Shown in pieces: positions 12,653 to 60,556 of a stretch of 64,000 bases of DNA (its first letter is position 1; every line of letters begins with the position of its first letter). A model generated the notes under the pieces. It saw only the letters and a program-made list of their open reading frames with translations, searched no databases and was not told where the DNA came from. This DNA comes from Aeromicrobium sp. Root472D3 (GTDB lineage Bacteria > Actinomycetota > Actinomycetes > Propionibacteriales > Nocardioidaceae), in NCBI RefSeq assembly GCF_001426485.1, contig NZ_LMET01000001.1:2036505-2100504 (forward strand). The letters are read 5' to 3'. The translations under genes and the position numbers were made by a program.

Positions 12653-12739
12653 CTAGTCGGGCAGACTGGTCTTCATGCCCGATGACTTCTGGCCCAGATT
12701 CTGGACCAATGTTGTGATGATGTTCCCGTCTATTCGGGG

Positions 12740-12895: not shown

Positions 12896-12938
12896 GTTCT
12901 GCGCCATCACCCACACAATCGCTGTGCGGCCCGCTCCA

Positions 12939-13061: not shown

Positions 13062-13102
13062 GGTCTCTCCTTCAGTTGGTGGGTACGGCTGGGCCACGCC
13101 GT

Positions 13103-13396
13103 TCAGCACGGCAACCCCAGGAGATGTACGCGTCGATCCTTCACGACGGGGGAGAGGTTGCGCGCCGGTGCCCACACCGTCGTGGTCCCGTCAAAGTCCT
13201 CGTGTGCACTGGTCTTCGTCAGCATGATCACGAGGCCTTCCCGGTCACCAGCAGCGTCCTTGCGCCATTCCAGCAGCAGGCCGAGTAGGGACGGCTGTTG
13301 GTGCATGACGCGGGAGCGCAGCAGCAGTTTTGCCTGCCAGGGATGGTCAGCGTCACAGTCGCCGCACGTCTCGAGCTGTACATGGGGCTAGGTGCC
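13103..13396 (-). pseudogene. possible 5'-truncated gene fragment
   Basis: On the minus strand one frame is open from just after a TAG near 13396 to the TGA at 13103. The part after the only ATG (13306) would be 67 residues (MHQQPSLLGLLLEWRKDAAG...), and the open part before it also reads like protein (LETCGDCDADHPWQAKLLLR). The mixed, non-repetitive composition suggests a real C-terminus whose N-terminus is missing. It ends 41 bases before the small gene at 13061. Product unknown. Confidence 0.35.
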
Positions 13397-13482
13397 GCTC
13401 TGACAGGGCACAGTCCGCTAGGCCGAGGGCTCCTACACGTGCATGATGAAACTGTAGGTTTGTTGGATAATCTAAGGCGCAT

Positions 13483-14952: not shown

Positions 14953-14963
14953 GGGGCTGACCC

Positions 14964-15749
14964 GTGCGGCCGGACGACGTCATCGACGACTTCGACGGCG
15001 ACGGGCTCGACGCGGCCGTGTGGTTGCCTCACTACCTGCCGCACTGGAGCACCCGCGAGACGTCCGCGGCGACGTTCGACGTCCGCGACTCGGTGCTGCG
15101 GCTGACGATCCCGGTCGATCAGGAAGTCTGGTGCGAGGGCGTGCACGATCCGGCGCTGCGGGTGTCGGCGATCCAGTCCGGCGAGCTCTCCGGACCAGCG
15201 GGCAGCACCCTCGGTCAGCAACCGTTCCTGCCCGGGCAGCTGGTCGTGCAGCAGCAGCCCGAGCTCCGCGGTTGGCTGCCCGAAGGGGGACGGATCGAGG
15301 TGCGTGCCCGGATGGACCTGTCACTTAGGTCGATGGCGTCGGTGTGGATGGTCGGCTTCGAGGAGGCACCGGAGCAGTCGGGGGAGATCTGCCTGTTCGA
15401 GATCTTCGGCGACAGCGTCTCGAGCGACGGGACGATGGTCCACGTCGGCAGTGGGATCCACCCCTTCCGGGACCCTCGGCTCACGGACGACTTCGCCGCG
15501 ATCGGTCGCACCATCGACACCGGAACCTGGCACGTGTTCGCCGCCGACTGGCACGACGACCACGTCGCGTTCTCGGTCGACGGCGAGCTGCTCCGTGCCG
15601 TCGAGCAGTCGCCCCGATACCCCCTGCAGATGGTCATCGGTGTCTTCGACTTCCCGGACCGGGACGGTCCGGAGGGGCACGAGCCGTGGCTCGAGGTCGA
15701 CTGGGTCCGAGGACCGTCCGGACGGTACAAGGTGTCTGGGTCGGCGTAG
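14964..15749 (+). CDS. GH16-like concanavalin-fold protein with altered active site
   Basis: A 261-residue protein with the beta-jelly-roll of glycoside hydrolase family 16 (laminarinases, lichenases). The family catalytic motif is GEIDxxE; here it reads GEICLFEIFG (about bases 15385-15415), so the central aspartate that tunes the nucleophile is cysteine. Later strands keep the pattern (HVFAADWHDDHVAFSVDGEL, WLEVDWVRG). There is no signal peptide from the GTG at 14964, so the product may be cytoplasmic. It starts 11 bases after miaB. It may be catalytically weak, a carbohydrate-binding protein, or an enzyme with a changed mechanism. Confidence 0.8.
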   Translation: MRPDDVIDDFDGDGLDAAVWLPHYLPHWSTRETSAATFDVRDSVLRLTIPVDQEVWCEGVHDPALRVSAIQSGELSGPAGSTLGQQPFLPGQLVVQQQPELRGWLPEGGRIEVRARMDLSLRSMASVWMVGFEEAPEQSGEICLFEIFGDSVSSDGTMVHVGSGIHPFRDPRLTDDFAAIGRTIDTGTWHVFAADWHDDHVAFSVDGELLRAVEQSPRYPLQMVIGVFDFPDRDGPEGHEPWLEVDWVRGPSGRYKVSGSA

Positions 15750-15843
15750 CGAATTCGACACCCGAGTTCTGTTGCACTTCGAAACCGTCCGTGTGATGTT
15801 GAACTCGGTCGACACAGGGTCGACCCGTCCCAACGGGGGGAAC

Positions 15844-17535
15844 ATGCACAAGAAGTTCACAGGCGTGCTGGCGGCGACCGCCGTCGCCGCGGTCACGCTC
15901 AGCGGGCCCGGCGTCTCGAGCGCGCAGGCCGAGTCGGCGTCCGACAGCGGCGTGACGATCGCCAAGTCGTCCATCAAGTGGGGCACGTGCACCAGTGCGC
16001 GTCTGCAGCAGGCCGGCGCCCAGTGCGCCAAGGTCGCGGTCCCGCTCGACTGGAGCAAGCCGCGCGGCAAGAAGATCAAGATCGCGATCTCGCGCAAGAA
16101 GCACACCGTCAAGGCCAGCAAGTACCAGGGCGTCATGCTGGTCAACCCCGGCGGACCGGGCGGCTCGGGCCTCTCGCTATCGCTGCTGCAGGGCGCCGTG
16201 CCCGAGTACAAGGGCCAGGACGTCGGCGGCGCCTACGACTGGATCGGCTTCGACCCGCGCGGTGTCGGCGAGAGCGAGCCCGCCGTCAGCTGCGACCCGA
16301 GCTGGGCGGGCTACAACCGTCCCCGCTACGAGCCCACCAGCGCCACCCCGTACCGCACGTACACCAAGAAGGACCCGTGGCCGGCGATCACCAACGCCTA
16401 CACGAACGCCTGCAAGGCCAACAACAGCAAGGGCATCCTGCGACACCTGACGACCAAGGACGTCGCCAAGGACATGAACCTGATCCGCCAGCGCCTCGGC
16501 GCGTCGAAGATCAACTACTACGGGTTCTCGTACGGCACGTACCTCGGCCAGGTCTTCGCGTCGATGTTCCCGAAGCAGGTGCGCCGCATGGTCTTCGACG
16601 GCACCGTCGACCCGCGCGGCGTCTGGTACGAGGCCAACCTGAGCCAGGACACGGCCTTCGACCGCAACATCAACATCTGGTTCAAGTGGGTCGCCAAGCA
16701 CGACAGCACCTACCACCTGGGCAAGACCGGCGCGGCCGTCCGCAACCTGTACTACGCGACCCGCAACCGGCTCTACGCCAACCCCGTGACGGCGCCCGGC
16801 GGCGTCCACGGCACGAGCGACAAGCTCGGTGGCAGCGAGTGGACCGACGCGTTCCTGTACGCCGGCTACTACGAGTCGACGTGGACCGACCTGGCCAACA
16901 CGTTCTCGTCGTTCGTCAACAACAACGACGTCGCGGCCCTCGAGGCGTCCTACCTCGACGCGTCGGGCTTCGGTGACGACAACGGCTACGCGGTCTACCT
17001 CGGCGTCCAGTGCACGGACACGTCGTGGCCGAAGAGCTGGAAGAAGTGGCGCGCCGACAACCAGCGCATCGCCCGCAAGGACCCGTTCCTGACGTGGTCG
17101 AACGCCTGGTACAACGAGTCGTGCCGCCACTGGCCCGCCCCGTCGCGCACGCCGAAGAAGATCGACGGGTCGAAGGTCAAGAGTGTCCTGATGCTCAACG
17201 AGACCCTGGACGCCGCCACGCCGTACGCGGGCAGCCTGCAGGTGCGCAAGCTGTTCCCGAACGCCAGCCTCGTCGCGACGAAGGGTGGCACGACCCACTC
17301 CAACTCGCTCAACGGCTACGCGTGCGTCGACAACAAGATCGCCCGCTACCTGTACGACGGCAAGCTGCCGAAGCGGGCGAAGGGCAACCGGGCCGACGCC
17401 TACTGCAAGGCGATCCCGCAGCCGCGGCCCGAGCCCGTCACGGGCTCGACGCAGCTGCAGGCGCAGTCGCAGAAGAAGTTGACGGTGCTGGAGCAGGTCA
17501 GGCTCGAGCAGCAGAAGATCGCGGCCCCGCGCTGA
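15844..17535 (+). CDS. secreted tripeptidyl aminopeptidase, alpha/beta hydrolase
   Basis: A 563-residue exported serine peptidase of the Streptomyces TAP/SlpD type, which removes tripeptides from extracellular protein N-termini. A signal peptide with cleavage near SSAQA-ES begins MHKKFTGVLAATAVAAVTLS. The oxyanion loop is NPGGPGGSG, the nucleophile lies in YGFSYGTYLGQ, and the C-terminal TAP-like domain supplies Asp (NETLDAATPY) and His (GGTTHSNS). GGGGGG precedes the ATG at 15844; earlier in-frame starts overlap the GH16-like gene. A strong hairpin (17571-17610) ends the transcript. Confidence 0.93.
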   Translation: MHKKFTGVLAATAVAAVTLSGPGVSSAQAESASDSGVTIAKSSIKWGTCTSARLQQAGAQCAKVAVPLDWSKPRGKKIKIAISRKKHTVKASKYQGVMLVNPGGPGGSGLSLSLLQGAVPEYKGQDVGGAYDWIGFDPRGVGESEPAVSCDPSWAGYNRPRYEPTSATPYRTYTKKDPWPAITNAYTNACKANNSKGILRHLTTKDVAKDMNLIRQRLGASKINYYGFSYGTYLGQVFASMFPKQVRRMVFDGTVDPRGVWYEANLSQDTAFDRNINIWFKWVAKHDSTYHLGKTGAAVRNLYYATRNRLYANPVTAPGGVHGTSDKLGGSEWTDAFLYAGYYESTWTDLANTFSSFVNNNDVAALEASYLDASGFGDDNGYAVYLGVQCTDTSWPKSWKKWRADNQRIARKDPFLTWSNAWYNESCRHWPAPSRTPKKIDGSKVKSVLMLNETLDAATPYAGSLQVRKLFPNASLVATKGGTTHSNSLNGYACVDNKIARYLYDGKLPKRAKGNRADAYCKAIPQPRPEPVTGSTQLQAQSQKKLTVLEQVRLEQQKIAAPR

Positions 17536-46279: not shown

Positions 46280-49200
46280 TCAGGCCGGATCGGTCTCGAC
46301 GACGTCGGCCGCGAAGCGGTCGGTCAGGATGCGCGACGAGCGCAGGCTCTCGACCGGCACCGCGGGGCTCCACAGCCAGCCCTGGGCGAGCCCGCAGCCG
46401 CGGACGCGCAGGGCGTCCAGGTGGGCCTGCGTCTCGACGCCCTCGGCGACGACCTTGAGGCCGAGCGAGCGGCCGAGCTCGATCAGCGAGCGGACGATCG
46501 CGAGGGAGTGCGCGTCCTCGGGGATGTCGGTGATGAAGCCGCGGTCGATCTTCAGGACGCTGATCGGCAGGTCGCGCAGGTAGGCCATCGAGCTGTAGCC
46601 GGTGCCGAAGTCGTCCAGGGCGATGTCGAAGCCGTGGTTGCGCAGCCGCTGCAGGATCGCGATCGCGAGGTCCTGGTCGGTCATGATCGCGCTCTCGGTG
46701 ATCTCGAGCATGACGGTGCTGGGGTCGAGACCGGCTGCGGCGACGGAGTCGACGATGTAGTCGGCAAGGCTCTCGTCCGACAGGCTCTGGCCCGACAGGT
46801 TGATCGCGACGTACATGTCGTCGGGCATCGTGAGGTCGGCGCGCAGCTCGCTGACGTCGCGCAGGGCCCGGCGGATGGCCCACCGGTCGACGTCGGTCGA
46901 GCTGGCGCTGAGCTCGGCGAGGGCCACGAACCGCTCGGGCCGGATCTCGCCGAGCGTGGGATGGTGCCAGCGGGCCAGGGCCTCGACGCCGACGACCTCG
47001 CCGGTGCTGACGTCGATGACGGGTTGGTAATGCATGTCGAGGGCGTCGTTCTCGAGGGCGGCCAGCAGCTCGCTGCTCACGACGTGCCGCTCCTCGGTCT
47101 GAGCGGCGAGCTCGGAGTCGAAGACGCGCACGCGTCCGCGACCGCCGGTCTTGGCGGCGTACATCGCGGAGTCGGCGAAGCGCACCAGGTGCTCGCTGGA
47201 CTCGGCGGGCGACAGGGCGACGCCGATCGTCGCGCCGACGCGGATCGTGTGGTGGCCGACGTGGTACGAGCCCGACAGCTCCTTGAGGATCGTGGAGGCC
47301 GCGTAGCGCGCGACCTGCTCGTCGACGTCGTGCATCACGACGATGAACTCGTCGCCGCCGAAGCGGGCGACCACGTCGTCCCCGTCGGTGCTGGCGAGCA
47401 GCCGCGCGGCGACCTCGACCAGCACGTCGTCGCCGGCGCTGTGGCCGCGTCCGTCGTTGACGTCCTTGAAGTGGTCGAGGTCGATGAACAGCACGGCCAC
47501 GCGGGACGTCGACCTGAGGTCGATCGTGTCGAGGTGGTCCATCAGCGTCTTGCGGTTCGACAGCCCGGTCAGCGGGTCGTGCTGCGCGGCGTGACGCAGC
47601 TCGTCGACGGCGCGCAGGCTGTCGGTGATGTCGGAGATCATGGCGAGCGACCCCTGGCGGACCCCGTCGACGTCCGGCATGGGCGAGGCCGCGACGTGCA
47701 GGCGGCGGGGTGAGCCGTCGGGGTGGTCGAACGTCACCTGGTAGCGCTCGGATCCGCGGTCCTGGCGGGTGTGGACACGGTCCTCGACGAGGTCGCGGTG
47801 CTGGTCGCGCAGCAGCGTGTATACGGGTGTGCCGAGCATCGCGTCGACGTCGAGGCCGAGCATCGCCCCGATGCGGGCGTTGGCGTAGGTGATGAGGCCG
47901 TCGGGCGAGATGACGAGCATGCCCTCCTCGGCCGTCTCGGCCATCGCGCGGTAGCGGGCCTCCGACGTGCTGAGCGCCTTCTGGGCGGTCACCTCGGCCG
48001 TGACGTCGCGGACCGTCGACACGATGCCGCCGACCTCGGTGTCGAGCAGGTTGGTCGACGTCTGCTCGACCCACCGCCACGCGTCGTCGGCGTCGCGGAC
48101 GCGGAAGCGCCACGTGTGCGACTCGGTGTGCGTCAGCACGCGCTGCCAGTGCGCCGCGGAGTCGGGGAAGTCGTCGGGGTGGATCGCCTGCATCTGCTCG
48201 TGGATCGGCCGGTCGTACCGCTGGCCGAACATGCGAAGGCCCGGGGGAGAGGCGTAGATCGTGCTGCCGGCGGCGTCGTGCATCACGACGAAGTCGCGCG
48301 AGCGGTCGGCGACGACGTCGAAGAACTGCTGCAGCTGCATGCGGGCCCGCTCGCTGTCCTGCAGCGGTCGCTGGTCGTGCAGCACGGCGGCGCACCCGCT
48401 CGGCTCGCCGTCGGCGTCGCGGAGAACCGTGATGTCGGCGCGCACGGCGATGGGGCTGCCGTCGGCGGCGCGCAGCACGCGGTCGCGCTGCAGGGTCTCG
48501 ACGCCCTCGAGGCGTGCAGTCTCGATCGAGCCGAGCTCGGGGGTGACGTCGTCGGCGTGCATGATCCAGCTCATGGGCCGGCCGATGAGCTCGTTGCGGC
48601 TGCGGCCCACGAGGGTGCAGAAGGCGTCGTTGACGGCGACGAACGTCTCGTCGGGGGAGTGCATCGTCTGCGGCAGGCGCGACTGCTCGAACCGTGCCCT
48701 GAACCGGGCCTCCTCGCGACGCTGCTGCAGCTGCACGAGCTTCTGCTCGGTGATGTCCGTCGAGTTGCCGACGACGGCCCGCACGTCGGGGTCGTCGCGC
48801 AGGTCGCTGATCACGATGCGACTCCACGAGACCGTGCGATCGGCGTGGACGAGCCGCACCTCGAGGGTCTCCTGGGCGCTGCGCCGCGTCGCGACGGCCT
48901 GCCAGGCGGCCTGGGCGGCGGGGCGGTCGTCGGGGTGGACGAACTGCAGGCCGAGCACCCCGACGACGTCGTCGATCTCCCAGCCGAGCCGACGGGGGAG
49001 CGCGGACGTCACGGACGTCAGGGCGCCGTCGTCCTGGATCGTGAAGACGATGTCGGCCGCGTTGCGCACCAGCGACTGCCACCGGCGCTGCTCCGACGCC
49101 AGGTCGCGCTCCTCGTGCACCCGGTCGGTCTCGTCGATGACCGCGACGACGATCTCGTGGCCGACCGCCGTCGCGACGAGCTGCACGTAGAGCTCGTCGA

Positions 49201-49435
49201 CGTCGTCGGACCGCAGGGCCACCTGCGCCTGGCCCGTGTCGCCCTGGGCGGCGGTCGTGACGCACTCGGCGATGTTCTCGGCGTCGGCCCGCGTGGCGCC
49301 GAACGTCTCGAGCCGGTGCCCGATGAGGTCGGCCGGGCGCAGACCCATCAGCACGACGAGGCCCGCGTCGGCGCGAAGGATCGTGCCGTCCTTCGCGCTG
49401 ACGGTCACGGTGGTCGCCAGATGAGGGGAGTGCAT
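46280..49435 (-). CDS. multi-PAS diguanylate cyclase/phosphodiesterase
   Basis: A 1051-residue soluble c-di-GMP enzyme. About five PAS domains (residues 1-620; e.g. RRWQSLVRNAADIVFTIQDD and RYRAMAETAEEGMLVISPDG) precede a GGDEF domain with an intact RFGGDEF near 692 and an EAL domain from about 810 with EALARWHHP, NLSGQSL, LEITESA, DDFGTGYSS and LKIDRGF. Both active sites look complete, so it may make and break c-di-GMP depending on the PAS signal. No membrane helix. The ATG at 49435 follows GGAGACG. The promoter faces nrdR. Confidence 0.94.
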   Translation of the reverse strand: MHSPHLATTVTVSAKDGTILRADAGLVVLMGLRPADLIGHRLETFGATRADAENIAECVTTAAQGDTGQAQVALRSDDVDELYVQLVATAVGHEIVVAVIDETDRVHEERDLASEQRRWQSLVRNAADIVFTIQDDGALTSVTSALPRRLGWEIDDVVGVLGLQFVHPDDRPAAQAAWQAVATRRSAQETLEVRLVHADRTVSWSRIVISDLRDDPDVRAVVGNSTDITEQKLVQLQQRREEARFRARFEQSRLPQTMHSPDETFVAVNDAFCTLVGRSRNELIGRPMSWIMHADDVTPELGSIETARLEGVETLQRDRVLRAADGSPIAVRADITVLRDADGEPSGCAAVLHDQRPLQDSERARMQLQQFFDVVADRSRDFVVMHDAAGSTIYASPPGLRMFGQRYDRPIHEQMQAIHPDDFPDSAAHWQRVLTHTESHTWRFRVRDADDAWRWVEQTSTNLLDTEVGGIVSTVRDVTAEVTAQKALSTSEARYRAMAETAEEGMLVISPDGLITYANARIGAMLGLDVDAMLGTPVYTLLRDQHRDLVEDRVHTRQDRGSERYQVTFDHPDGSPRRLHVAASPMPDVDGVRQGSLAMISDITDSLRAVDELRHAAQHDPLTGLSNRKTLMDHLDTIDLRSTSRVAVLFIDLDHFKDVNDGRGHSAGDDVLVEVAARLLASTDGDDVVARFGGDEFIVVMHDVDEQVARYAASTILKELSGSYHVGHHTIRVGATIGVALSPAESSEHLVRFADSAMYAAKTGGRGRVRVFDSELAAQTEERHVVSSELLAALENDALDMHYQPVIDVSTGEVVGVEALARWHHPTLGEIRPERFVALAELSASSTDVDRWAIRRALRDVSELRADLTMPDDMYVAINLSGQSLSDESLADYIVDSVAAAGLDPSTVMLEITESAIMTDQDLAIAILQRLRNHGFDIALDDFGTGYSSMAYLRDLPISVLKIDRGFITDIPEDAHSLAIVRSLIELGRSLGLKVVAEGVETQAHLDALRVRGCGLAQGWLWSPAVPVESLRSSRILTDRFAADVVETDPA

Positions 49436-49713
49436 GGTGCTGCGTCTCCGGTCTGTCGGCCTGTGTTCGGTCCCTCATCGTAGGACCGAGGCGGCCCGTT
49501 GTGGGGCAGTTCCGCAACGGATGGTCGCGCGGCGCGTCGGGACCTTGGTCATCATGGCGACTGCGACGGTTTCGACGGCTCCCCGCAGCGTCCCGGCAGC
49601 CCCCGGACACGCGTGTCGGCTGTGACGGGTGTGACTCGCACTACGCCTGACCTGCGCTTTCGCTGCGGCCCCGGCACATACCCCAGGAATGTCGGACGTG
49701 TCTGCGAAGGTCG

Positions 49714-49742
49714 TTGCACCGATCGTGCTCGACGCGTATGGT
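49714..49742 (+). promoter_or_regulatory. sigma-70-type promoter of nrdR-nrdJ
   Basis: TTGCAC (49714-49719), 17-base spacer, TATGGT (49737-49742). This predicts transcription from about 49749, inside the first NrdR box and about 160 bases before nrdR. Confidence 0.7.
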
Positions 49743-49744
49743 TA

Positions 49745-49791
49745 CCACTACATCTAGTACTTACACCCATGTAGTTCTCCACATGTGGGTC
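49745..49791 (+). promoter_or_regulatory. pair of NrdR boxes, centres 31 bp apart
   Basis: The core CTACATCTAG (49748-49757) and the palindrome CCACATGTGG (49779-49788) each fit the NrdR core CWATATATWG in its main positions. Their centres (49752.5 and 49783.5) are exactly 31 bp apart, the three-turn spacing seen in known NrdR operators. They overlap the predicted transcript start, so NrdR would repress nrdR and nrdJ. Confidence 0.75.
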
Positions 49792-49909
49792 CACAGGATG
49801 TCGCGGTCAGTGCACAGGTTTCGGCCCGAGTGCACAGCTTGATCCACAGATTCGTCCCCAGGCCCGCATGTCAGGTCCACGTCCCAGCCGCCCCGGAAGG
49901 AGCACCCTC

Positions 49910-50410
49910 ATGCACTGTCCGTTCTGCAAGAACACCGACACGAAGGTGCTCGACAGCCGAGTGGCCGACGAGGGGGGCGCCATCCGGCGTCGTCGGGTGT
50001 GCGCCCAGTGCGAGAAGCGGTTCACGACGATCGAGCAGATGCAGCTCATGATCGCCAAACGGTCCGGTGCCACCGAGCCGTTCATCCGCGACAAGGCCGT
50101 CGCCGGCGTCGCCAAGGCGTGCAAGGGGCGTCCGGTCTCGGCCGACGACCTAGCGCGTCTGGGCCAGCAGGTCGAGGACGCACTGCGTGACCGCGGTGCG
50201 GCCGAGATCCCGGCGCACGAGGTCGGCATGGCCATCCTCGAGCCGCTCAAGGCGCTCGACGAGGTCGCCTACCTGCGGTTCGCCAGCGTCTACAAGGCGT
50301 TCGAGTGCGCCGACGACTTCGCGGCCGAGATCGCGACCCTCATGGTCGCGGCCGCCGACGGCGAGCTCGCCGAAGAGGCGCGCAGCAACAGCCCCAAGCA
50401 CGGCGGCTGA
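49910..50410 (+). CDS. nrdR: ribonucleotide reductase repressor NrdR
   Basis: A 166-residue repressor with an N-terminal zinc ribbon ([17 protein letters not shown] ... CAQCEKRF) and a C-terminal ATP-cone that senses dATP ([20 protein letters not shown]). The ATG at 49910 has GGAAGGAGC before it; a frame from 49868 adds nothing like the family. nrdJ follows 94 bases later. The pair is the usual actinobacterial arrangement. Confidence 0.96.
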
Positions 50411-50504
50411 GCACCACCAGAACTTCCCAGCAGCACCCGCACGTCCAGCACCACCCGTACGAACTTCACACACGTATGCACGGCAACCACACAGGAGCAG
50501 CACG

Positions 50505-53450
50505 ATGACAGAGACGGTCAGCGGGTCCACCGGATCCCCGCGCAAGTCCAGCGCCAAGGCCAAGGCGGGTGCCGGTCTGACGATCGAGCGCGTCTACACG
50601 ACCGAGGGCGTGCACCCGTACGACGCCGTCACGTGGGAGCGTCGCGACGTCGTCCAGACCAACTGGAAGACCGGCGAGACCGTCTTCGAGCAGCGCGGCG
50701 TCGAGTACCCCGACTTCTGGAGCGTCAACGCCTCCACGATCGTCACGACCAAGTACTTCCGCGGCGCCGTCGGCTCGCCCGAGCGTGAGCAGAGCCTCAA
50801 GCAGCTGCTCGACCGCGTCGTCCTGACCTACACGCAGGCCGGCCGCGACAACGGCTACTTCACGACCGAGGAGCAGGCCACGATCTTCGAGCACGAGCTG
50901 ACGCACATGCTCCTGCACCAGGTCTTCAGCTTCAACAGCCCCGTGTGGTTCAACGTCGGCACGTCCAGCCCGCAGCAGGTCAGCGCCTGCTTCATCCTGG
51001 CCGTCGACGACTCGATGGACTCGATCCTCAACTGGTACAAGGAGGAGGGCCTGATCTTCAAGGGCGGCTCCGGTGCCGGCCTCAACCTGTCGCGCATCCG
51101 CTCGTCCAAGGAGCTGCTCCGCTCCTCGGGTGGCACCGCGTCCGGTCCCGTCTCGTTCATGCGCGGCGCCGACGCGTCCGCCGGCACCATCAAGTCGGGC
51201 GGCGCCACGCGTCGTGCGGCCAAGATGGTCGTCCTCGACGTCGACCACCCCGACATCGCCGAGTTCGTCGAGACCAAGGCCAAGGAAGAGGACAAGATCC
51301 GCGTCCTCCGCGACGCCGGTTACGACATGGACCTCGGCGGCGCCGACATCACGTCGGTGCAGTACCAGAACGCCAACAACTCCATCCGCGTCAACGACGA
51401 GTTCATGCGCGCGGTCGAGAACGGCACCGAGTTCGGTCTCCGCGCCCGCACCAACGGCGAGATCATCGAGACCGTCGACGCGCAGAAGCTGTGGCAGGAC
51501 ATCGCCCAGGCCGCGTGGGCGTGCGCCGACCCCGGCATCCAGTACGACGGCACGATCAACGACTGGCACACCTCGCCCGAGGCCGGACGCATCACGGCGT
51601 CCAACCCGTGCTCGGAGTACATGCACCTCGACAACTCGAGCTGCAACCTCGCGTCGCTGAACCTGCTGAAGTTCCTCAAGGACGACGGCTCGTTCGACAC
51701 CCAGACGTTCGTCAAGGCCGTCGAGTTCATCATCACCGCGATGGACATCAGCATCTGCTTCGCCGACTTCCCGACCGAGGCGATCGGCGACACCACGCGC
51801 GCCTACCGCCAGCTCGGCATCGGTTTCGCCAACCTCGGCGCGCTGCTCATGGCGTCGGGCCTGGCGTACGACTCCGACGGTGGCCGCGCGCTGGCCGGCT
51901 CGATCACGTCGCTGATGACCGGCACGTCCTACCGCCGCTCGGCCGAGATCGCCGGCGTCGTCGGACCGTACGACGGCTTCGCGCAGAACTCCTCGGCGCA
52001 CGAGCGCGTCATGCGCAAGCACCAGGCCGCCAACGACGAGATCCGCACGCTGCACTCGATGGACATCGACGTGCACCGTGAGGCCGCCAAGCAGTGGGCC
52101 GACAACCTGAAGATCGGTGCCAAGAACGGCTGGCGCAACAGCCAGGCGTCCGTCCTCGCGCCCACCGGCACCATCGGCTTCATGATGGACTGCGACACGA
52201 CGGGCATCGAGCCCGACTTCTCGCTGGTCAAGTTCAAGAAGCTCGTCGGCGGCGGCTCGATGCAGATCGTCAACCAGACGATCCCCGCGGCGCTGCAGAA
52301 GCTCAAGTACAACGTCGAGACCATCGAGGCCATCGTCGAGTACATCGCCGAGAACGGTCACGTCGTCGACGCGCCCGGCCTCAAGACCGAGCACTACGAG
52401 ATCTTCGACACCGCGATGGGCAAGCGCTCCATCAAGCCGATGGGTCACGTGCTGATGATGGCCGCGTGCCAGCCGTTCCTGTCGGGTGCCATCTCCAAGA
52501 CGGTCAACCTGCCCGAGACGGCCACGGTCGACGAGATCAAGGACGTCTACTTCCAGGGCTGGAAGCTCGGCCTGAAGGCGCTCGCGGTCTACCGCGACAA
52601 CTGCAAGGTCGGCCAGCCCCTGTCGGACGGCAAGGAGGCCAAGTCGTCCGGCTCGGTCGAGGTCAAGGAGGTCGTGCGCGAGGTCATCGTCGAGAAGCCG
52701 ATCCGTCGTCGTCTCCCGAAGTCGCGCCAGGCCATCACGACGTCGTTCTCCGTGGGCGGCGCCGAGGGCTACATGACCTCGGGTGCGCACGAGGACGGCT
52801 CGCTGGGCGAGATCTTCATGAAGCTGGGCAAGCAGGGCTCGACCCTGGCCGGCATGATGGACGCCTTCTCGATCGCGATCAGCATCTCGCTGCAGTACGG
52901 CGTGCCGCTGGAGACGTTCGTCAGCAAGTTCACCAACATGAAGTTCGAGCCCGCCGGTCTGACCGACGACCCGGACGTCCGCATGAGCCAGTCGATCATG
53001 GACTACACGTTCCGTCGCCTGGCCCTGGACTACCTGGACTTCGACACCCGTTCGGCCCTCGGCATCCACTCGGCCGACGAGCGTCAGCGCTACCTCGACA
53101 CCGGTTCGCACCAGGTGCCCGACAACGCCGGCACCACCGCCGCCGAGCTCGTCGACGACGCCCCCTCGCCGGCGCCCACCTCGCTCGCCAGCGAGGGAGC
53201 GCCAGCGACCGAGCGTGAGGGCGGAGCCCGAGGCGAGACCAACCTCGACGTCTCGGTCTCCGGCGACAGCCACGAGGCAGCCGCCTCGAAGCCCGCCCCG
53301 GCCACCGCCCACACGAGCGCCGAGCTCTTCGAGCAGATCACCGGATCTGCCGTCGACTCCCCGCTCTGCATGACCTGCGGAACCAAGATGCGTCCCGCCG
53401 GCTCCTGCCACGTGTGCGAGGGCTGCGGCAGCACCAGCGGCTGCAGCTGA
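50505..53450 (+). CDS. nrdJ: adenosylcobalamin-dependent (class II) ribonucleotide reductase NrdJ
   Basis: A 981-residue enzyme that reduces ribonucleotides with an AdoCbl radical, independent of oxygen. Visible are the substrate-site stretches FNVGTSSPQQVSACFILAVD and NPCSEYMHLDNSSCNLASLN (catalytic cysteine region), SVLAPTGTIGFMMDCDTTG and a C-terminal zinc-like tail CMTCGTKMRPAGSCHVCEGC. A linker at about residues 885-945 differs in base pattern (see 53181). ATG at 50505 follows AGGAG; longer in-frame starts overlap nrdR. No B12 riboswitch was seen before it; control appears to be by NrdR. Confidence 0.95.
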   Translation: MTETVSGSTGSPRKSSAKAKAGAGLTIERVYTTEGVHPYDAVTWERRDVVQTNWKTGETVFEQRGVEYPDFWSVNASTIVTTKYFRGAVGSPEREQSLKQLLDRVVLTYTQAGRDNGYFTTEEQATIFEHELTHMLLHQVFSFNSPVWFNVGTSSPQQVSACFILAVDDSMDSILNWYKEEGLIFKGGSGAGLNLSRIRSSKELLRSSGGTASGPVSFMRGADASAGTIKSGGATRRAAKMVVLDVDHPDIAEFVETKAKEEDKIRVLRDAGYDMDLGGADITSVQYQNANNSIRVNDEFMRAVENGTEFGLRARTNGEIIETVDAQKLWQDIAQAAWACADPGIQYDGTINDWHTSPEAGRITASNPCSEYMHLDNSSCNLASLNLLKFLKDDGSFDTQTFVKAVEFIITAMDISICFADFPTEAIGDTTRAYRQLGIGFANLGALLMASGLAYDSDGGRALAGSITSLMTGTSYRRSAEIAGVVGPYDGFAQNSSAHERVMRKHQAANDEIRTLHSMDIDVHREAAKQWADNLKIGAKNGWRNSQASVLAPTGTIGFMMDCDTTGIEPDFSLVKFKKLVGGGSMQIVNQTIPAALQKLKYNVETIEAIVEYIAENGHVVDAPGLKTEHYEIFDTAMGKRSIKPMGHVLMMAACQPFLSGAISKTVNLPETATVDEIKDVYFQGWKLGLKALAVYRDNCKVGQPLSDGKEAKSSGSVEVKEVVREVIVEKPIRRRLPKSRQAITTSFSVGGAEGYMTSGAHEDGSLGEIFMKLGKQGSTLAGMMDAFSIAISISLQYGVPLETFVSKFTNMKFEPAGLTDDPDVRMSQSIMDYTFRRLALDYLDFDTRSALGIHSADERQRYLDTGSHQVPDNAGTTAAELVDDAPSPAPTSLASEGAPATEREGGARGETNLDVSVSGDSHEAAASKPAPATAHTSAELFEQITGSAVDSPLCMTCGTKMRPAGSCHVCEGCGSTSGCS

Positions 53451-53460
53451 CCACGCAGTG

Positions 53461-53506
53461 ACGTTGAACGGGCCTCGACCGATCTTGGTCGGGGCCCGTT
53501 CAACGT
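53461..53506 (+). terminator. strong hairpin after nrdJ
   Basis: ACGTTGAACGGGCC (53461-53474) pairs perfectly with GGCCCGTTCAACGT (53493-53506); CGACC and GGTCG pair inside. It marks the left edge of the lower-GC island. Confidence 0.9.
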
Positions 53507-53603
53507 CTCGGAGTGAGAGCAATTAGCACCTGTGCACCAACCAGCCCGACGACGGTGTCGATTCAGTCCCTAATGGACCGGCGGCTAGCGGGTATCCGAA
53601 CGG

Positions 53604-56600
53604 TCAACCAGCGACGACTGAGGACACCTTGAACAGGTCGATCGGCATTGGATGGCCAAGGTTCCACGTCACAGCGATAGGACGTTCGCCCACGTGCGAG
53701 CGATACGTCGCTGGTCCGAGGAAGACGTATGGTGCAGTCCCAAATTCGTTGCTCGGCTGCGCGCGCGCAAAAATCAAGACGGTGCTGGTGCCATTGATGT
53801 ACCTCTGACCAGCTGGGGATTGGACGCTCGTGCGCGATTGGGATTCCCAGTGCAACAGCGTCGGACTGATCGGGTAGTCGCGGTACATCGTGGTCGGCGA
53901 GTAATCGGCCTCCGATTTTGTGAACGTCACGAAGAAGGCGTCGACGTTGAGGTCTGACTGGTACAGCACGCCTTCACGGAATGAGTCTGGCTTGCGGTTC
54001 ATCGATACATAGTCAATGCCGGCCAGAACCTCTTCAAGTTGGTAGCTAGCGTGGATGCGCAGAGGTAGGTGAGAGAGCTCGCCACCAAGCTCGGTGGTCT
54101 GGTGTCTTGCGGCGTCAAATGATAAATCCACGACTGTGCTTAGTTCTTCGCGAACAGCCGGCTCCGTACGCAGCGCGTTGAGCCCCTCGTTAAAGGACCT
54201 GTGCCCGCCGCCGCCTCGCCATAGCGAGAAGAAGAGCATTCGCGCAAAGCGCTGCTCTGACTCGGGGAGTTCATCGTATGTAGGTGAGTCGTCCGCGAGA
54301 ATCTGGCGATATGTGGCTGCCCGCTCGCGATCGTCGACGTGAGTGAAGGCTCGAACGCGCTTGAGCAGCTTCTCCTCAATCGCGGATCCGATCTGAGTTT
54401 GAAGCTGAGCATCCCTACGAAGTCGAGTCCATGAGCGGTCGCCTCGGCGAAGAATGTCTGAGAGCTCAAGGCCGGATTCTTCGAGGAAGGTTCTCAAGTC
54501 CTGGTCGCCGTACGATCTCAGCTCGGCGACGATTTGCGCCCACCTGTTTGCGACCTGCGACCTGATGTTGAGCAGGACGATGTCCTGCGACGTCTTGTCG
54601 AGCACGATCTGGCAACCGGATGGCAGGAATGGGAATCCGTGCTCGATGTCGTGTTCGAGCCCCCGACGTGTCTGCCCGGTGAGAGCCCTCAGTTTGAGGT
54701 CCCAACGGAACTCCTTTCGGTGGTAGCCGACGAAGTCCAGGACAGTCAGTACGGCTTTGTCGCGGGTTCGTCGAAGCCCCCTGCCCAGTTGCTGCAAGAA
54801 GATGGTCGCGCTCTCCGTGGGGCGAAGGAACAAGACCGTGTCGACATCGGGCAGATCCAAGCCTTCGTTGAAGAGGTCTGCTGCGAAGAGCACGTTGATC
54901 CGACGCTCGCGAAGGTCGGCCAGCGCCTGCTCGCGTTCGGCGGGCGAGGTTGACCCACTGACAGCGCGCGCCGGGATTCCTGCCGCCTCAAAGGTGTTTG
55001 CCATGAAGTGGGCGTGAGCGACGCTTACGCAGAACCCAAGGGCACGCATTGTGCCGGGGTCTAGGACTTTATCTTTGACCTGCGATAAGACGACTCGTGC
55101 TCGCTGGCCGTTCCCCGTGTACACGTTGTTCAGCTCGGCCTCGTCGTAACGCCCATGCTTCCAGGTAACCTGGCGCAAGTCGGTGTTGTCGGCCACGGCA
55201 AAATAGTGGAATGGGCATAACAGGTCAGCGCTGAGAGCTTCCCAGAGTCGAAGTTCTACAGCTGTCCGTCCCTCGAAGAACGAGCGAACGTCGGCGCCGT
55301 CTGCGCGCTCCGGTGTGGCCGTGAGACCTAACAGCTCGGCTGGGGTGAGGTGGCTAAGTATCTTCCGGTATGTCGACGCCTGGGCGTGATGGAACTCGTC
55401 GATGACAACGACCTTAAACGCGCCCACGGGGATGTTCTCGACGCCGTACGACGTCAAAGACTGGACGCTCGCGAAGACGTGACTCCATCGTTCTGGTCGA
55501 GCCCCACCGACGTACAGCTCGCCGAAGTTCGGGTCCGCGAGCACCTCGCGATACGTGCGGAGGGACTGTTCGAGGATCTCTCTACGGTGCGCGACAAATA
55601 GCAGTGACGGCTGAGTTCCTGACGCCGAGTCACACATAGATCGGTAGTCGAGAGCTGCGACAACAGTCTTTCCTGTGCCTGTTGCGGCAACAATCAGATT
55701 TCGATGGCGATCGTGAAGTGTGCGTTCGGCCTCAAGTGATTCGAGCATCTCGAGCTGGTACGGATAGCCGCGAACTTCCAGCCCAGACAGTGAGATCGTC
55801 ACGCGGCTACGAGTGGTGCGCCCCGACGCCTCGGAGATCGCGTCGTCGAGGCGGTCGCGGTCAGTGTCTGGGTCGTATCGCTCGAAGGACGGATCGTTCC
55901 AGTAGGTCTCGAACGTTGCGCTGAACTTGTCCAAAAGAGTTGAGTTGGCGATACGCGAGAGCCGGACGTTCCACTCCACGCCATCGAGAAGGGCGGCGCG
56001 AGACAGGTTGGAAGAACCGACGTAGGCCGTGTCGAATCCCGTGTCGCGATGAAAGAGCCAAGCCTTGGCGTGAAGCCTCGTGCGTAGCGCGTCGTACTGA
56101 ATGCTCACGTCGGCACCAAGTTCACGAATGAGACGATCTAGCGCTTCACGTTCGGTGGCCCCCATGTAGGTAGTAGTCACGATACGGAAAGGTTTCCCAC
56201 GAGCGCGAAGAATCTTTAACTCTGGCTCGAGTAACCGAACCCCGTGCCATTTGACGAACGCACACAGTAGGTCGACTCGATCTGCAGTCTCGATCTCGGC
56301 ACGGAGTTCCGCTCCGAGAGATGGTTCGCCATGCGCGTTAGTGAGGAGTGCTGCGTCGGAGAGCGGCGTGCGCGGGCGACGGCTCGAAAACGGGATAACG
56401 CCAGGCGCGTCCGGGTAGTTGAGGCGAAGCAGCTGCGTGATGCGAGGGTCTATAGGGTCTTTTTCGCCGGTCAGACTCTCCAAGAGTTCGTGCACAATCG
56501 CAAGACGCTTGTCGGAACTCGTCTCCAATTCGAGGCGCTTGAGCAGCGCCTGCGCCACGTGGCGGGTCAGCACGGCGGGCTGGTCCGCTGAATCGACGGT

Positions 56601-56687
56601 GGCGAGCTCACTCGCAAGCTGTGGTTCTAGTCCGATTGCCGTCCTCAACGAGGTGGTTACCAGCGATTCGTAGATCCCTTCGCGCAT
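53604..56687 (-). CDS. PLD nuclease - SF2 helicase - DUF3427 protein
   Basis: A 1027-residue three-part protein. Residues about 110-290 are a phospholipase D-type nuclease with one HKD motif (LHAKAWLFHRDTG ... AYVGSSNLSR, from about 205). Residues about 310-660 are a superfamily 2 helicase: Walker A AATGTGKT near 333, DEFHH box near 428, motif III GLTATPER, motif VI QQLGRGLRRT. The last third matches the DUF3427 tail (FREGVLYQSDLNVDAFFVTF, YRDYPISPTLLHWESQS). This architecture occurs in bacterial defence islands, but I know of no established mechanism. GC is visibly lower than the flanks (about 60% in one sampled 60-base line). The NERD-helicase gene lies upstream on the same strand. Confidence 0.92.
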   Translation of the reverse strand: MREGIYESLVTTSLRTAIGLEPQLASELATVDSADQPAVLTRHVAQALLKRLELETSSDKRLAIVHELLESLTGEKDPIDPRITQLLRLNYPDAPGVIPFSSRRPRTPLSDAALLTNAHGEPSLGAELRAEIETADRVDLLCAFVKWHGVRLLEPELKILRARGKPFRIVTTTYMGATEREALDRLIRELGADVSIQYDALRTRLHAKAWLFHRDTGFDTAYVGSSNLSRAALLDGVEWNVRLSRIANSTLLDKFSATFETYWNDPSFERYDPDTDRDRLDDAISEASGRTTRSRVTISLSGLEVRGYPYQLEMLESLEAERTLHDRHRNLIVAATGTGKTVVAALDYRSMCDSASGTQPSLLFVAHRREILEQSLRTYREVLADPNFGELYVGGARPERWSHVFASVQSLTSYGVENIPVGAFKVVVIDEFHHAQASTYRKILSHLTPAELLGLTATPERADGADVRSFFEGRTAVELRLWEALSADLLCPFHYFAVADNTDLRQVTWKHGRYDEAELNNVYTGNGQRARVVLSQVKDKVLDPGTMRALGFCVSVAHAHFMANTFEAAGIPARAVSGSTSPAEREQALADLRERRINVLFAADLFNEGLDLPDVDTVLFLRPTESATIFLQQLGRGLRRTRDKAVLTVLDFVGYHRKEFRWDLKLRALTGQTRRGLEHDIEHGFPFLPSGCQIVLDKTSQDIVLLNIRSQVANRWAQIVAELRSYGDQDLRTFLEESGLELSDILRRGDRSWTRLRRDAQLQTQIGSAIEEKLLKRVRAFTHVDDRERAATYRQILADDSPTYDELPESEQRFARMLFFSLWRGGGGHRSFNEGLNALRTEPAVREELSTVVDLSFDAARHQTTELGGELSHLPLRIHASYQLEEVLAGIDYVSMNRKPDSFREGVLYQSDLNVDAFFVTFTKSEADYSPTTMYRDYPISPTLLHWESQSRTSVQSPAGQRYINGTSTVLIFARAQPSNEFGTAPYVFLGPATYRSHVGERPIAVTWNLGHPMPIDLFKVSSVVAG

Positions 56688-57082
56688 GCAAGTCAGCTTG
56701 TCATCTCAAAGGGTCGTTAGGTGCCAACAGGCAGCTCAAGTAGCCGATTTCTGAGCGTTCCTGACTCGGGAGACTGCCCGTGTTCAAGAACCTCGAACCA
56801 AGGTCGAAGCGGTCGTCTTTGACTCGCTCGCTGAAGCCGCACGCGTGATGGCTAGACGACGGATTGGCCGGGTTCCTCGTAGGTGAAGGGAATCTCCTAG
56901 CATCGAAGTTGAAGGCGAAGACTGCTGCAAAGGCAAGAAGATCGAACTTGAGTCGCGTGCCCATTATTCGCGACGCACGACTTCCGTTACTTAGTCTCGC
57001 AACCCTCGGCGCAGGCAGAGTCGATTTCGGGAGGGACTGGACGGCGATTGGCCGGCTTCGTCCTGTCGCGGTGCGTGCGCGG
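56688..57082. other. 395-bp intergenic region between the two island genes
   Basis: No convincing gene is visible. One open frame on the minus strand (56964-56701, 87 residues, starting MGTRLKFDLLAFAAVFAFNF) has no ribosome-binding site and no recognisable family; it may be a decayed gene or chance. No terminator hairpin was found, so the two helicase genes may share a transcript or the second may have its own promoter here. Confidence 0.4.
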
Positions 57083-59176
57083 TTAGTCCAGATAGCCGAG
57101 CCATAGTGTGTCGCGAGCTCTCGTCATAGCGACATACCATTCGCGTCGCTCGATCTCGCAGCGCTCAGCGTAAGCACTGTCGGTCTCTGCATGAAAGCGC
57201 CTAGGGGGTTGATGCGACAGACCCGGAACGAAGACGACTTTGAACTCGAGACCCTTGGCTCGTTTCACCGTTCCGACCTTGACCTGGTCGGAAGCGACTC
57301 CGTCGTAATCGGTCAGGTCGCGGCAGGGGATCGACGCACGATGCATCACGGCGCGCAAGGCGTCGACGTCTGCGCGACGACGAGCCAGGACGACCATGTC
57401 ACCCCAGGCGGTCCCTGCGCCATGGGTACGTCTGAGTGCCTCGACGAGCCTGTTGTGGAGGTCGACTCTGCCGGACGCAATGACCGCCGTGGGCACCGCT
57501 CCGACGCGCGACGGAAGCTCGTCGGCGACCGGAGCCTGAGCCTCGTCGTCGAGGTCGTTGAAGACGTCACCGTCGACGAGTCGGCGAGCCTCGGCGACAA
57601 TTTCGCGTGTGTTCCGGTAGTTCAAGCGAAGGACGGTCGAGCGTCCCGTCACGTTGATCCCTGCCTCCGACAGGGTGAAGCCTCCTGGATATACCGACTG
57701 CTGACCATCGCCCATGATGAGGAACTGGTGCGTCGCGTGACCGGCCAACTCGTGCAAGAACTTCAGCGAGATTAGGTTGAGATCCTGCACCTCGTCGACG
57801 ATGACACCTCCGTAGCGAAACAGGTCCGGGTACCGCTGCACCGCGAGCCGTGCGTCGAGAATGAGGTCGTTGAAGTCACGGACGCCGCGCAACTCCAGTT
57901 CGGCCTCGTACGTGGCGAATAGGTCCCACATGAACTTGCGATCTTCCAGCCGCATAGGCGTTTTCCGTCCAACCCGCGTCAGGTTTTCGTATTGACCGAA
58001 CTCGGTAATCCCGCGCCCCTTGAGAACGTAGTTGATCTCGTCTTTCCAGTAGTTAGCGTTCTCATTGAGGCCGCGTAAGTGGCCTGCCGCACCCGAAGTG
58101 ATCCAGGCCCTGCCGAAGGCGGCATCGGCCTTGTCGGCGCTGACCGACGACGCCATCCCAGCCTTCTCGAGACATTGCCGAGCCAGCTTGTGGACTCCGA
58201 TGAACTCGATGTTCTGCGATGCGCTGGCCGACAGGCGGCGAGCCAGCGATGACAGGACGATGGGCAGCGTCTTGACGAAGCTCACGAACAGCACCGGGTC
58301 TCTCGAACGCTGAGCAAGATAGACGGCCCGGTGTAGCCCGACGACCGACTTGCCCGTCCCAGCCGGCCCGCGAAGCCGCGATGGTCCGTTGACCTGCTTG
58401 CATATCAGCTGGTTCTGTTCGGGGTGGAGGAATGTCATCCACGACTCGATCGGTTTGGCCAGGGCCGAATCCAGCAGTGCAGCAGTGAGGTCTCCGACTC
58501 CGGGCAGGGCATCCTGCGTGGGTGGTCTCTCGGTGGCAGCCGCGAGATGCCGGGGTTTCGGTCGGCGACGCGACAAGGACGGGAGTGGAAGGCCGATCTC
58601 GACCTCTGGGCATGCCGCGCCGATCAGGTCAGCGATCAGTAGGACCTGTTCGGACGTGAGCCGGACCGGCAGACGCAGCAACCACTGGACAACATTTCGG
58701 TCCCCCAAGATCGTCAGCGGTCCTGAGGCTTCTACAAGGTCACGGTCAGTAAACACCCAGACAGGCGAGATCGCGCTGACGGCCAAGCCGGTCGACGCCA
58801 CAGTCTCGGCTATTACATCTATGAGGCGGCAGTAGCCTGTCACCTCGTCGTCGACGCATTCTTGCCCGCGGAACAATGACCCCTTGAGAAGGCCGAGCTC
58901 AGCCCAGTGCTTGGCATCCAGCAGCACGATGCCTCCGGGTCCGACGAGGATGAAGTCGATGTTGGCGCGCTTGGACCCCGGCCACCGACGATCCTCTAAC
59001 ACGACCCATCCGTGGTCCATTAGGGGGCGGATAAGTGCTGCAGTGCTCGATTCCGACAGCGCGGCTGTGAGGTAGTTGCGCGCCTCCTTCATCTTTAGCT
59101 CGCGAAGCTCGAAGAGCGCGTCGGCCTCTGCGATGAGGCGATCGCCGTTAAAGCGCGCAGAAGCTCCAGCAACCAT
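57083..59176 (-). CDS. NERD-domain UvrD/Rep-type helicase
   Basis: A 697-residue protein. Residues about 45-160 are a NERD nuclease-like domain with the restriction-type core IDFILVGPGGIVLLDAKHW (Asp, Asp-x-Lys). After a basic linker (SLSRRRPKPRHLA) comes a superfamily 1 UvrD-like helicase: Walker A GPAGTGKS near 269, motif II VDEVQDL near 459, motif IV LRLNYRNTREIV, motif V-VI GTVKRAKGLEFKVVFVPG and YVAMTRARDTLW. A nuclease joined to a 3'-5' helicase suggests attack on or repair of DNA ends. ATG at 59176; a later ATG at about 59095 is possible. First gene of the island pair. Confidence 0.93.
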   Translation of the reverse strand: MVAGASARFNGDRLIAEADALFELRELKMKEARNYLTAALSESSTAALIRPLMDHGWVVLEDRRWPGSKRANIDFILVGPGGIVLLDAKHWAELGLLKGSLFRGQECVDDEVTGYCRLIDVIAETVASTGLAVSAISPVWVFTDRDLVEASGPLTILGDRNVVQWLLRLPVRLTSEQVLLIADLIGAACPEVEIGLPLPSLSRRRPKPRHLAAATERPPTQDALPGVGDLTAALLDSALAKPIESWMTFLHPEQNQLICKQVNGPSRLRGPAGTGKSVVGLHRAVYLAQRSRDPVLFVSFVKTLPIVLSSLARRLSASASQNIEFIGVHKLARQCLEKAGMASSVSADKADAAFGRAWITSGAAGHLRGLNENANYWKDEINYVLKGRGITEFGQYENLTRVGRKTPMRLEDRKFMWDLFATYEAELELRGVRDFNDLILDARLAVQRYPDLFRYGGVIVDEVQDLNLISLKFLHELAGHATHQFLIMGDGQQSVYPGGFTLSEAGINVTGRSTVLRLNYRNTREIVAEARRLVDGDVFNDLDDEAQAPVADELPSRVGAVPTAVIASGRVDLHNRLVEALRRTHGAGTAWGDMVVLARRRADVDALRAVMHRASIPCRDLTDYDGVASDQVKVGTVKRAKGLEFKVVFVPGLSHQPPRRFHAETDSAYAERCEIERREWYVAMTRARDTLWLGYLD

Positions 59177-59324
59177 CGTGGCTCTCTTCTCCCATAGAGG
59201 CTCGGACAGGTTGTCGAAATTGAATCACCTCAGGGAGGCATTCGTACAAGATTTGCGCAATTGGACGGCAACGACGTCGATCTACTCAAAGAGCAGTTCA
59301 GCGCGAGTAAACGTTGCCGGCGCC

Positions 59325-59429
59325 GTGAGCATCGAGCGTCCGATGGACGGCCACCGGGTCGACGAGCAGTATGAGTGGTTGCGCGAGAGCGTGCTCCAAC
59401 ACCTCGCGGACGACGATGAGACGGCGTGA
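59325..59429 (+). pseudogene. possible C-terminal fragment at the island edge
   Basis: From GTG at 59325 a 34-residue stretch (VSIERPMDGHRVDEQYEWLR, then ESVLQHLADDDETA) reads like a real, acidic protein end. The frame is open further upstream to about 59220 but without a protein-like start and into the promoter of the opposite gene. It may be what remains of a gene cut by the arrival of the island, or a very small gene. The rest of 59177-59575 shows the minus-strand promoter and nothing else recognisable. Confidence 0.35.
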
Positions 59430-59575
59430 CCCGGCACGCTGACGCGGCGGAGGCTCTCCCGACGAGGTCCGGGTGGGATGGGACACCACGACGTCGGGAT
59501 GAGATCGGGCGGCTGGCGGGTTGTCACTCAGTAGGCGGCGTCAGTTGGCGGCGCCGACGCGATGAAGGGTGTTCC

Positions 59576-60556
59576 ATGTCTGTGCCGGTTTCCATCCTCG
59601 ACCTCGCCACCGTCGGCAAGAACCAGACGATCGCCGAGTCCTTGGCCGGCAGCGTCGCCTTGGCGCAGACGGCGGAACGAGTGGGCTACCAGCGGGTCTG
59701 GTACGCCGAGCACCACAACATGGCGTCCATCGCCTCGTCCGCGACCTCGGTGCTGATCGCGCACGTCGCCGCTCACACCAGCACCATCCGGCTCGGCTCG
59801 GGAGGCGTGATGCTGCCGAACCACTCGCCGCTCACGATCGCCGAGCAGTTCGGCACGTTGGAGACGCTCCACCCCGGCCGGATCGACCTCGGCCTGGGTC
59901 GCGCGCCCGGTAGCGACCAGAACACGATGCACGCCCTGCGCCGCAACGCCGCGTCGTCCGACAGCTTCCCCGAGGACGTCCTCGAGCTGCAGGCCTACCT
60001 GCGCGGTCAGTCGCGCATCCCGGGCGTCTCCGCCTACCCGGGCGCCGGCACGGACGTCCCGCTCTACATCCTCGGCTCGTCGCTGTACGGCGCAGGACTG
60101 GCGGCGGCCCTCGGCCTGCCCTACGCCTTCGCCTCGCACTTCGCGCCGGCCGCCCTGCACGACGCGATCGCGCTGTACCGCAGCGAGTTCAAGCCGTCCG
60201 AGCAGCTCGACAAGCCCCACCTCATGGCTGCGTACAACGTCTTCGCCGCCGACGACCAGGCCTCTGCCGAGCGCCAGCAGCTCGAGGTCGCGCGCAGCCG
60301 CGTGGCACTGCTCGTGCGCCCCGGCACGAAGTACACCGACGAGCAGGCCGACGAGGTGCTCGCGTCCCCGCAGGGCCAGCACCTGCGCGAGATGATGACG
60401 TACAGCGCCGCCGGCACGCCCGACATCGTGGTCAAGCACGTCGAGCAGTTCGTCGACGAGACCGGCATTGATGAGCTCATCGTCACCCACCAGGGCTCGA
60501 CCGTCGACCAGCGGCTGCGCTCGGCCGAGCTGTTCGCCGAGAGCTACGTGGCCTGA
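59576..60556 (+). CDS. LLM class flavin-dependent oxidoreductase
   Basis: A 326-residue luciferase-like monooxygenase of the MsnO8 type. Typical stretches are RVWYAEHHNM, LGSGGVMLPNHSPLTIAEQF, HPGRIDLGLGRAPGSDQ and YPGAGTDVPLYILGSSLYGA. These use FMNH2 (or F420) on unknown small substrates. ATG at 59576 has GAAGGG before it. Back to high GC, so it lies outside the island. The 3' end overlaps the convergent zinc-ribbon gene by 13 bases. Confidence 0.9.
   Translation: MSVPVSILDLATVGKNQTIAESLAGSVALAQTAERVGYQRVWYAEHHNMASIASSATSVLIAHVAAHTSTIRLGSGGVMLPNHSPLTIAEQFGTLETLHPGRIDLGLGRAPGSDQNTMHALRRNAASSDSFPEDVLELQAYLRGQSRIPGVSAYPGAGTDVPLYILGSSLYGAGLAAALGLPYAFASHFAPAALHDAIALYRSEFKPSEQLDKPHLMAAYNVFAADDQASAERQQLEVARSRVALLVRPGTKYTDEQADEVLASPQGQHLREMMTYSAAGTPDIVVKHVEQFVDETGIDELIVTHQGSTVDQRLRSAELFAESYVA

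Follow-up and report, generated by a model that had tools for sequence, protein, structure and literature searches.

Immediately 3′ of a gene that we, following an earlier note on the sequence, take to be nrdJ, the genome of Aeromicrobium sp. Root472D3 carries two adjacent minus-strand genes: gene B, which encodes a PLD nuclease, a superfamily 2 (SF2) helicase-like motor and a DUF3427 region in a single polypeptide, and gene A, which encodes a NERD-UvrD nuclease-helicase. Both lie in the window that we analyzed, a 64,000-nucleotide stretch of contig NZ_LMET01000001.1 (positions 2,036,505 to 2,100,504), to which the coordinates of our features refer; genomes, loci and protein matches are given our own handles (G, L and P). 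The earlier note had read the pair as a candidate undescribed two-gene defence system. We think it probable that the segment is instead the present content of a defence hotspot 3′ of nrdJ in Aeromicrobium and its relatives, with gene B as a type IV restriction enzyme of the SauUSI kind and gene A as a separately acquired accessory effector, the two not being obligate partners. Observed for the locus are the domain anatomy of both proteins, their conserved active sites, the polymorphism of the site among relatives and the avoidance of C5-cytosine methyltransferases by genomes that carry B.

The segment that holds the two genes differs from its surroundings in conservation and composition. In blastn comparisons, DNA similarity to most relatives stops at about the inverted repeat that directly follows nrdJ (arms of 29 nt, 86% complementarity), and the stretch not conserved against relatives runs from ~53.5 kb to ~59.49 kb. 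The guanine-cytosine (GC) content is 0.58-0.63 over 53.5-59.5 kb, against about 0.65-0.72 in the flanks; the left edge at the nrdJ terminator and the lower GC had both been recognized before, and both held. On the right, the site is bounded by a luciferase-like monooxygenase gene that also lies 3′ of nrdJ in G034, G012, G030 and G035. In the window, 6,125 bp separate the nrdJ stop codon from this gene, compared with 495 bp in G012 (L048), so that the search for an empty site in close relatives, which the earlier note had suggested, revealed a near-empty one, and its idea of an acquired, defence-type island stood. The near-empty site of G012 is filled largely by ~5 copies of a 60-70 base repeat. 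Nor are the genes core in the genus: among the Aeromicrobium genomes searched, B was found in just G000 and G095, and A under strict criteria in just G000 and G033.

Matches to the 3′ DNA of nrdJ, a few of which are weak, were obtained in 39 of the 41 genomes of Aeromicrobium, and we read 29 of these sites together with the window. Sixteen of the 30 are occupied by a C5-methyltransferase, HNH_2, GmrSD, A or B gene within 20 kb (G000, G010, G011, G014, G019, G020, G024, G029, G030, G033, G034, G035, G036, G059, G060 and G061); some of the 16 are of common descent, so they stand for fewer than 16 events, and the other 14 sites were not scanned gene by gene. Of the 30 C5-methyltransferase matches listed for the 41 genomes, 21 are strong (E < 1e-30), and 11 of these 21 are found no more than 20 kb to the 3′ side of the nrdJ match, seven of them within 150 bp. 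The G034 site pairs a C5-methyltransferase with a Vsr-type gene. HNH_2 genes occur at five nrdJ sites (checked with Pfam in L066 and L049), GmrSD genes at two (one with the N-terminal domain alone), and NERD-UvrD genes are also present at nrdJ sites other than that of the window. To list neighbors we used a simple gene finder based on codon usage, with the window as its training set, which misses atypical genes such as the G010 methyltransferase; because of such misses, we used tblastn to count A, B, HNH_2 and nrdJ anew in the A and B loci. In other genera, nrdJ lies in the fetched stretch of 5 of 21 B loci (L158, L161, L162, L163 and L168), and in the tree of B these nrdJ-associated copies do not group together (6 changes, of which 4 or more are forced). 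Since one conserved site holds different defence genes in different relatives and is near-empty in one, we class the region 3′ of nrdJ as a defence hotspot of Aeromicrobium. We found no report of a defence hotspot at nrdJ or in Aeromicrobium among the papers listed. Beyond the luciferase-like gene of G012 lies a low-GC SNF2-type helicase gene (L048:4909-7815), perhaps a second defence segment.

Both open reading frames described in the earlier note are present, with products of 1027 and 697 residues, and Pfam recovered the domains ascribed to them: PLDc_2, ResIII/Helicase_C and DUF3427 in B, and NERD and UvrD_C/UvrD-helicase in A. The claim of novelty did not survive for gene B. The PADLOC model mREase_IV (PDLC03659), which gives a family name and no proof of activity, matches it with 1146 bits over residues 92-1025, nearly its full length, and SauUSI (7clg) is its best match in the PDB both by sequence (E 5.3e-74) and by Foldseek (E 6.8e-33, 941 columns). 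The two proteins align across residues 115-666 of gene B, with H206 of B opposite the catalytic H119 of SauUSI. The HxK...N catalytic residues of the PLD domain (H206, K208 and N227) and the residues of the helicase motifs are invariant across 27 aligned proteins. By sequence and modeled structure, gene B thus belongs to a kind already named, the SauUSI-like type IV restriction enzymes, with a predicted activity. Relatives of gene B are split into two pieces in G208, G203, G358 and G117, the last with an in-frame TGA, and a relative of gene A is split likewise in G347, which suggests frequent decay.

An enzyme that cleaves DNA containing 5-methylcytosine (m5C) should not coexist with C5-cytosine methyltransferases, and avoidance is thus expected for B. 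Of 391 genomes from across the order, 95 had B (E <= 1e-40) and 184 had the methyltransferase family PF00145 (E <= 1e-20), with both in 21; a methyltransferase accordingly occurred in 21 of the 95 genomes with B versus 163 of the 296 without it (odds ratio 0.23, p = 1.7e-8). Strict gene A, taken as a control, showed no such bias (9/19, odds ratio 1.0). The host genome gave no PF00145 match in a search that was positive in 10 of 14 control genomes, and G095, the other Aeromicrobium with B, gave no C5-methyltransferase match either. This avoidance fits a gene B product predicted to cleave m5C-containing DNA. It lends genome-scale support to a role of the actinobacterial SauUSI-like clade in policing cytosine methylation, a point of importance for attempts to transform these bacteria.

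Gene A is a different case. Its NERD residues D74, D87 and K89 and its helicase motifs are invariant among 44 aligned proteins, and its predicted fold is UvrD-like in the helicase part (mean predicted local distance difference test score, pLDDT, 88.2). Among solved structures, its fold is closest to those of UvrD, PcrA and Rep, as might be expected if A were a repair or recombination helicase that happens to sit in the hotspot; the structure comparison (VIA) listed helicase folds and barely covered the NERD part. We regard a repair function as quite improbable, given that A is rare and patchy (9 of 341 genomes of the family; 19 of the 391 of the order at E < 1e-100), low in GC and placed at a defence hotspot with restriction genes adjacent. 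A protein search returned 783 relatives, of which the best 120 were listed; the closest, at 98% identity, is from A. fastidiosum, where the A-B pair is probably also present since the clusters of its A and B matches (P0001 and P0121) share a longest contig of 85172 bases. A second, shorter NERD-UvrD family (~550 residues) adjoins gene A relatives (L193:11505-13160 and L139:9923-11581), and a piece of it adjoins B in L160. Gene A might also be a stand-alone anti-phage nuclease-helicase, an unnamed one-gene system whose action is unrelated to B. This we hold as a tentative possibility, the best placed of the alternatives. Against it, among 25 of 28 PADLOC matches inspected no named system model spans the length of A, so that the check proposed in the earlier note left A without a named system even as it assigned B to one; several A loci (e.g., L143, L145, L147 and L152) have no defence gene evident by eye, in the absence of a Pfam scan; and the domain content alone would fit DNA repair as well.

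If the two genes formed one system, A and B should keep company in other genomes. Among the 391 genomes, those with strict A (19) and those with B (95) overlapped in six, against 4.6 expected (p = 0.42), which is chance level. We read 30 other A loci (L066, L138-L154, L178-L186 and L191-L193; several stop at contig edges, and L187 was dropped as it shares a contig with L193), and B adjoined A in one of them, L192 of G457, which belongs to another genus. There, A (9133-11220), a gap of 143 bp, B (11364-14435) and nrdJ (14520-17438) follow one another, with B and nrdJ tail to tail. G386, considered as a second such neighborhood, was not counted: its helicase is just 30% identical and gave no NERD match. 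The neighbor of A varies instead, with HNH_2 in 5/30 loci (L066, L141, L142, L144 and L151; in a further one, L140, it lies 8 kb off), B in 1/30, and a PIN-domain gene with a small partner between A and nrdJ in L191. HNH_2 occurred in none of the 21 B loci (5/18 A loci versus 0/21 B loci, p = 0.015). The stretch also includes nrdJ in 4 of the 30 A loci (L066, L140, L191 and L192), and with the window counted, 5 of the 9 genomes of the family in which A occurs have it close to nrdJ.

These data bear on the possibility that A and B cooperate, with B making double-strand ends in modified DNA onto which A, or elsewhere another NERD protein, would load and degrade. The common strand and the A-B-nrdJ order shared by the window and G457 speak for it. 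So does the apparent separate origin of the two pairs, which selection could explain: that they are sisters was rejected by approximately unbiased (AU) tests for either gene (p = 0.0045 for B, where L192 is a long row, and p = 0.00026 for A), so the pairing arose separately in two genera, meaning that either the hotspot joined the same two families twice or the neighbors were selected. In addition, an A match (P0032) and a B match (P0194) have, at whatever distance from each other, the same longest contig, of 2903995 bases. Nonetheless we judge cooperation unlikely, in view of the chance-level co-occurrence, the single adjacency among the other A loci and the 395-bp gap between the genes, and also because the A nearest to that of the window among the genomes read, that of G033 (support 98, on a long branch), sits in the same genus and at the same site with HNH_2 in the position of B.

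Four NERD queries run against every locus (E <= 1e-6) bear on the same question. Of 27 other B loci, 6 have a NERD gene, of one architecture or another, no more than 3.1 kb from B: 117 bp away in L163, 238 bp in L160, 1.4 kb in L170, 1.8 kb in L175 and 3.0 kb in L164, all five above the Pfam cut-off, with gene A itself as the sixth, in L192. The count was made post hoc with queries of which two had been taken from B loci, and NERD genes occur without B too, the same queries finding a second one in 3 of the 30 A loci and one in L058 among 28 nrdJ sites other than L066. This post hoc proximity is the best evidence that the companions of SauUSI-like enzymes are NERD proteins in general and not gene A in particular, and a looser NERD-SauUSI partnership is possible. 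We find doubtful the idea that SauUSI-like type IV enzymes recurrently have NERD nucleases as partners, one able to replace another, which turn their cuts in modified DNA into processive destruction of the invader; if it were true, NERD/type IV synergy would have left its trace in the separate assembly of A, B and nrdJ in the two genera, and gene A proteins would do likewise beside HNH_2 nucleases in five other loci. As NERD genes were found near B in further loci, we place more weight on cooperation, and less on the reading that we favor, than we otherwise would. The earlier note had staked its two-gene system on the families recurring as neighbors, and the outcome was divided: co-occurrence at chance level and adjacency in a single other locus count against it, but G457 repeats the arrangement and five further loci have other NERD genes near B. 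Its suggestion of one helicase for each polarity was a guess.

Several results weigh against reading the segment as a hotspot filled by a type IV enzyme and an independent effector. The order of A, B and nrdJ in G457 is identical to that of the window, which tells against a loose independence of the two genes, and NERD genes lie closer to B than they would if placed at random within the stretches fetched (P = 0.00085, or 0.0066 without L192). A C5-methyltransferase does occur in 15 of the 78 genomes with a close B (169 of 313 without). The order-wide statistic ignores kinship, and for this reason we repeated the test within one genus, that of G046: among its 38 genomes, B was present in 15 and a methyltransferase in 15 with one having both, which amounts to a methyltransferase in 1/15 genomes with B versus 14/23 without (p = 0.0017), a result that speaks for the avoidance. 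The C-terminal domain of B resembles that of SauUSI weakly in sequence (5.7 bits over that stretch) and the structure model of B has a mean pLDDT of 66.7, so its base specificity is argued from DUF3427 and the genome statistics; its activity is itself a prediction from sequence.

We nevertheless favor the hotspot reading, in which the two genes would work as follows. The C-terminal DUF3427 of B would be expected, by analogy to SauUSI, to recognize 5-methylcytosine-type DNA; its SF2 motor would translocate with ATP and its dimerizing PLD nuclease would cut both strands of incoming modified DNA, both as shown for SauUSI. Gene A, in all likelihood acquired separately, would be an anti-DNA effector combining UvrD-type unwinding with NERD cleavage from ends or gaps, and it may profit from ends made by B or by whichever nuclease occupies the slot. 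The type of enzyme that B represents is already known, the slot and the companion gene A less so; for specialists, three things stand out: the hotspot at nrdJ, the avoidance of methyltransferases, and the part that NERD proteins may play next to type IV enzymes, a loose idea for which there are now a few specified loci where synergy can be tested.

Table 1. Features of the nrdJ 3′ site, in window coordinates.
Feature	Position	Strand	Basis and remarks
Gene taken to be nrdJ (class II ribonucleotide reductase)	50505..53450	+	Left anchor of the hotspot; gene prediction
Inverted repeat, terminator-like	53452..53515	.	3′ of nrdJ; left border of the variable segment
Variable (acquired) segment	53516..59488	.	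nrdJ to luciferase-like monooxygenase gene; blastn borders, GC
Gene B (PLD, ResIII/Helicase_C, DUF3427)	53604..56687	-	1027 residues; open reading frame and Pfam
Gene B, DUF3427 region, candidate target-recognition domain	53628..54212	-	Residues 826-1020; PF11907, 60.5 bits
Gene B, SF2 helicase-like ATPase/translocase	54708..55781	-	Residues ~303-660; ResIII, Helicase_C
Gene B, PLD nuclease domain	55899..56348	-	Residues ~114-263; PLDc_2; H206/K208/N227
Spacer between A and B, 395 bp	56688..57082	.	
Gene A, NERD-UvrD nuclease-helicase	57083..59176	-	697 residues; open reading frame and Pfam
Gene A, UvrD-type superfamily 1 helicase	57086..58444	-	Residues ~245-697; Pfam, alignment, structure comparison
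Gene A, NERD domain match	58877..59059	-	Residues 40-100; Pfam
Luciferase-like monooxygenase	59576..60556	+	Right anchor of the site; Pfam and blastn

Mobile-element borders for the segment were sought and not upheld: neither the window nor the 12 loci scanned holds a tRNA, 49000-60000 has no match in Rfam, and the 20 direct-repeat families listed, of 22, include none that links the two edges. A possible gene stump had been proposed at the right edge, but 59180-59430 has no supported homologue among the sequences compared, merely tblastn matches at E 0.006-0.009, and DNA similarity there is confined to the conserved flank past 59489. A gene remnant in the spacer between A and B likewise gave no supported match among the sequences compared, and sigma-70-like promoters numbered 0 in 53400-59700 against 1.2 expected. 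Within the coding linker of nrdJ, 53161-53244 matches 26 other places in the host genome (76-86% identity over ~40-80 bases), as if a dispersed repeat had inserted into the coding sequence.

With respect to known systems, excerpts of papers on NERD/UvrD in anti-phage defence gave no description of the gene A protein. Its best system-model match is the PADLOC entry C3a187 ‘NERD+UvrD’ (PDLC01087; 113.9 bits), which by its description has the same domain pair and whose best stretch is the helicase end of A, residues 443-692. The UvrD part of A also resembles GajB of Gabija (83.5 bits), and we rejected A as a GajB: its neighbors are B and the luciferase-like gene, no GajA (AAA ATPase-TOPRIM) being adjacent, and unlike GajB it has a NERD nuclease of its own. 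For gene B, Sco2863 of Streptomyces coelicolor, perhaps a relative of B, is listed as restricting m5C DNA in vivo in an excerpt of PMC3874153. The closer comparison is SauUSI of Staphylococcus aureus (PDB 7clg; PMC7913695), whose anatomy we compared with that of gene B from excerpts of PMC7913695 and PMC3874153. Unlike SauUSI, gene B has an N-terminal extension of ~80 residues and a diverged C-terminal domain, with a specificity that is predicted; at ~20% identity in the Foldseek alignment, the two share the succession of PLD nuclease, SF2 ATPase and C-terminal DUF3427 in one polypeptide.

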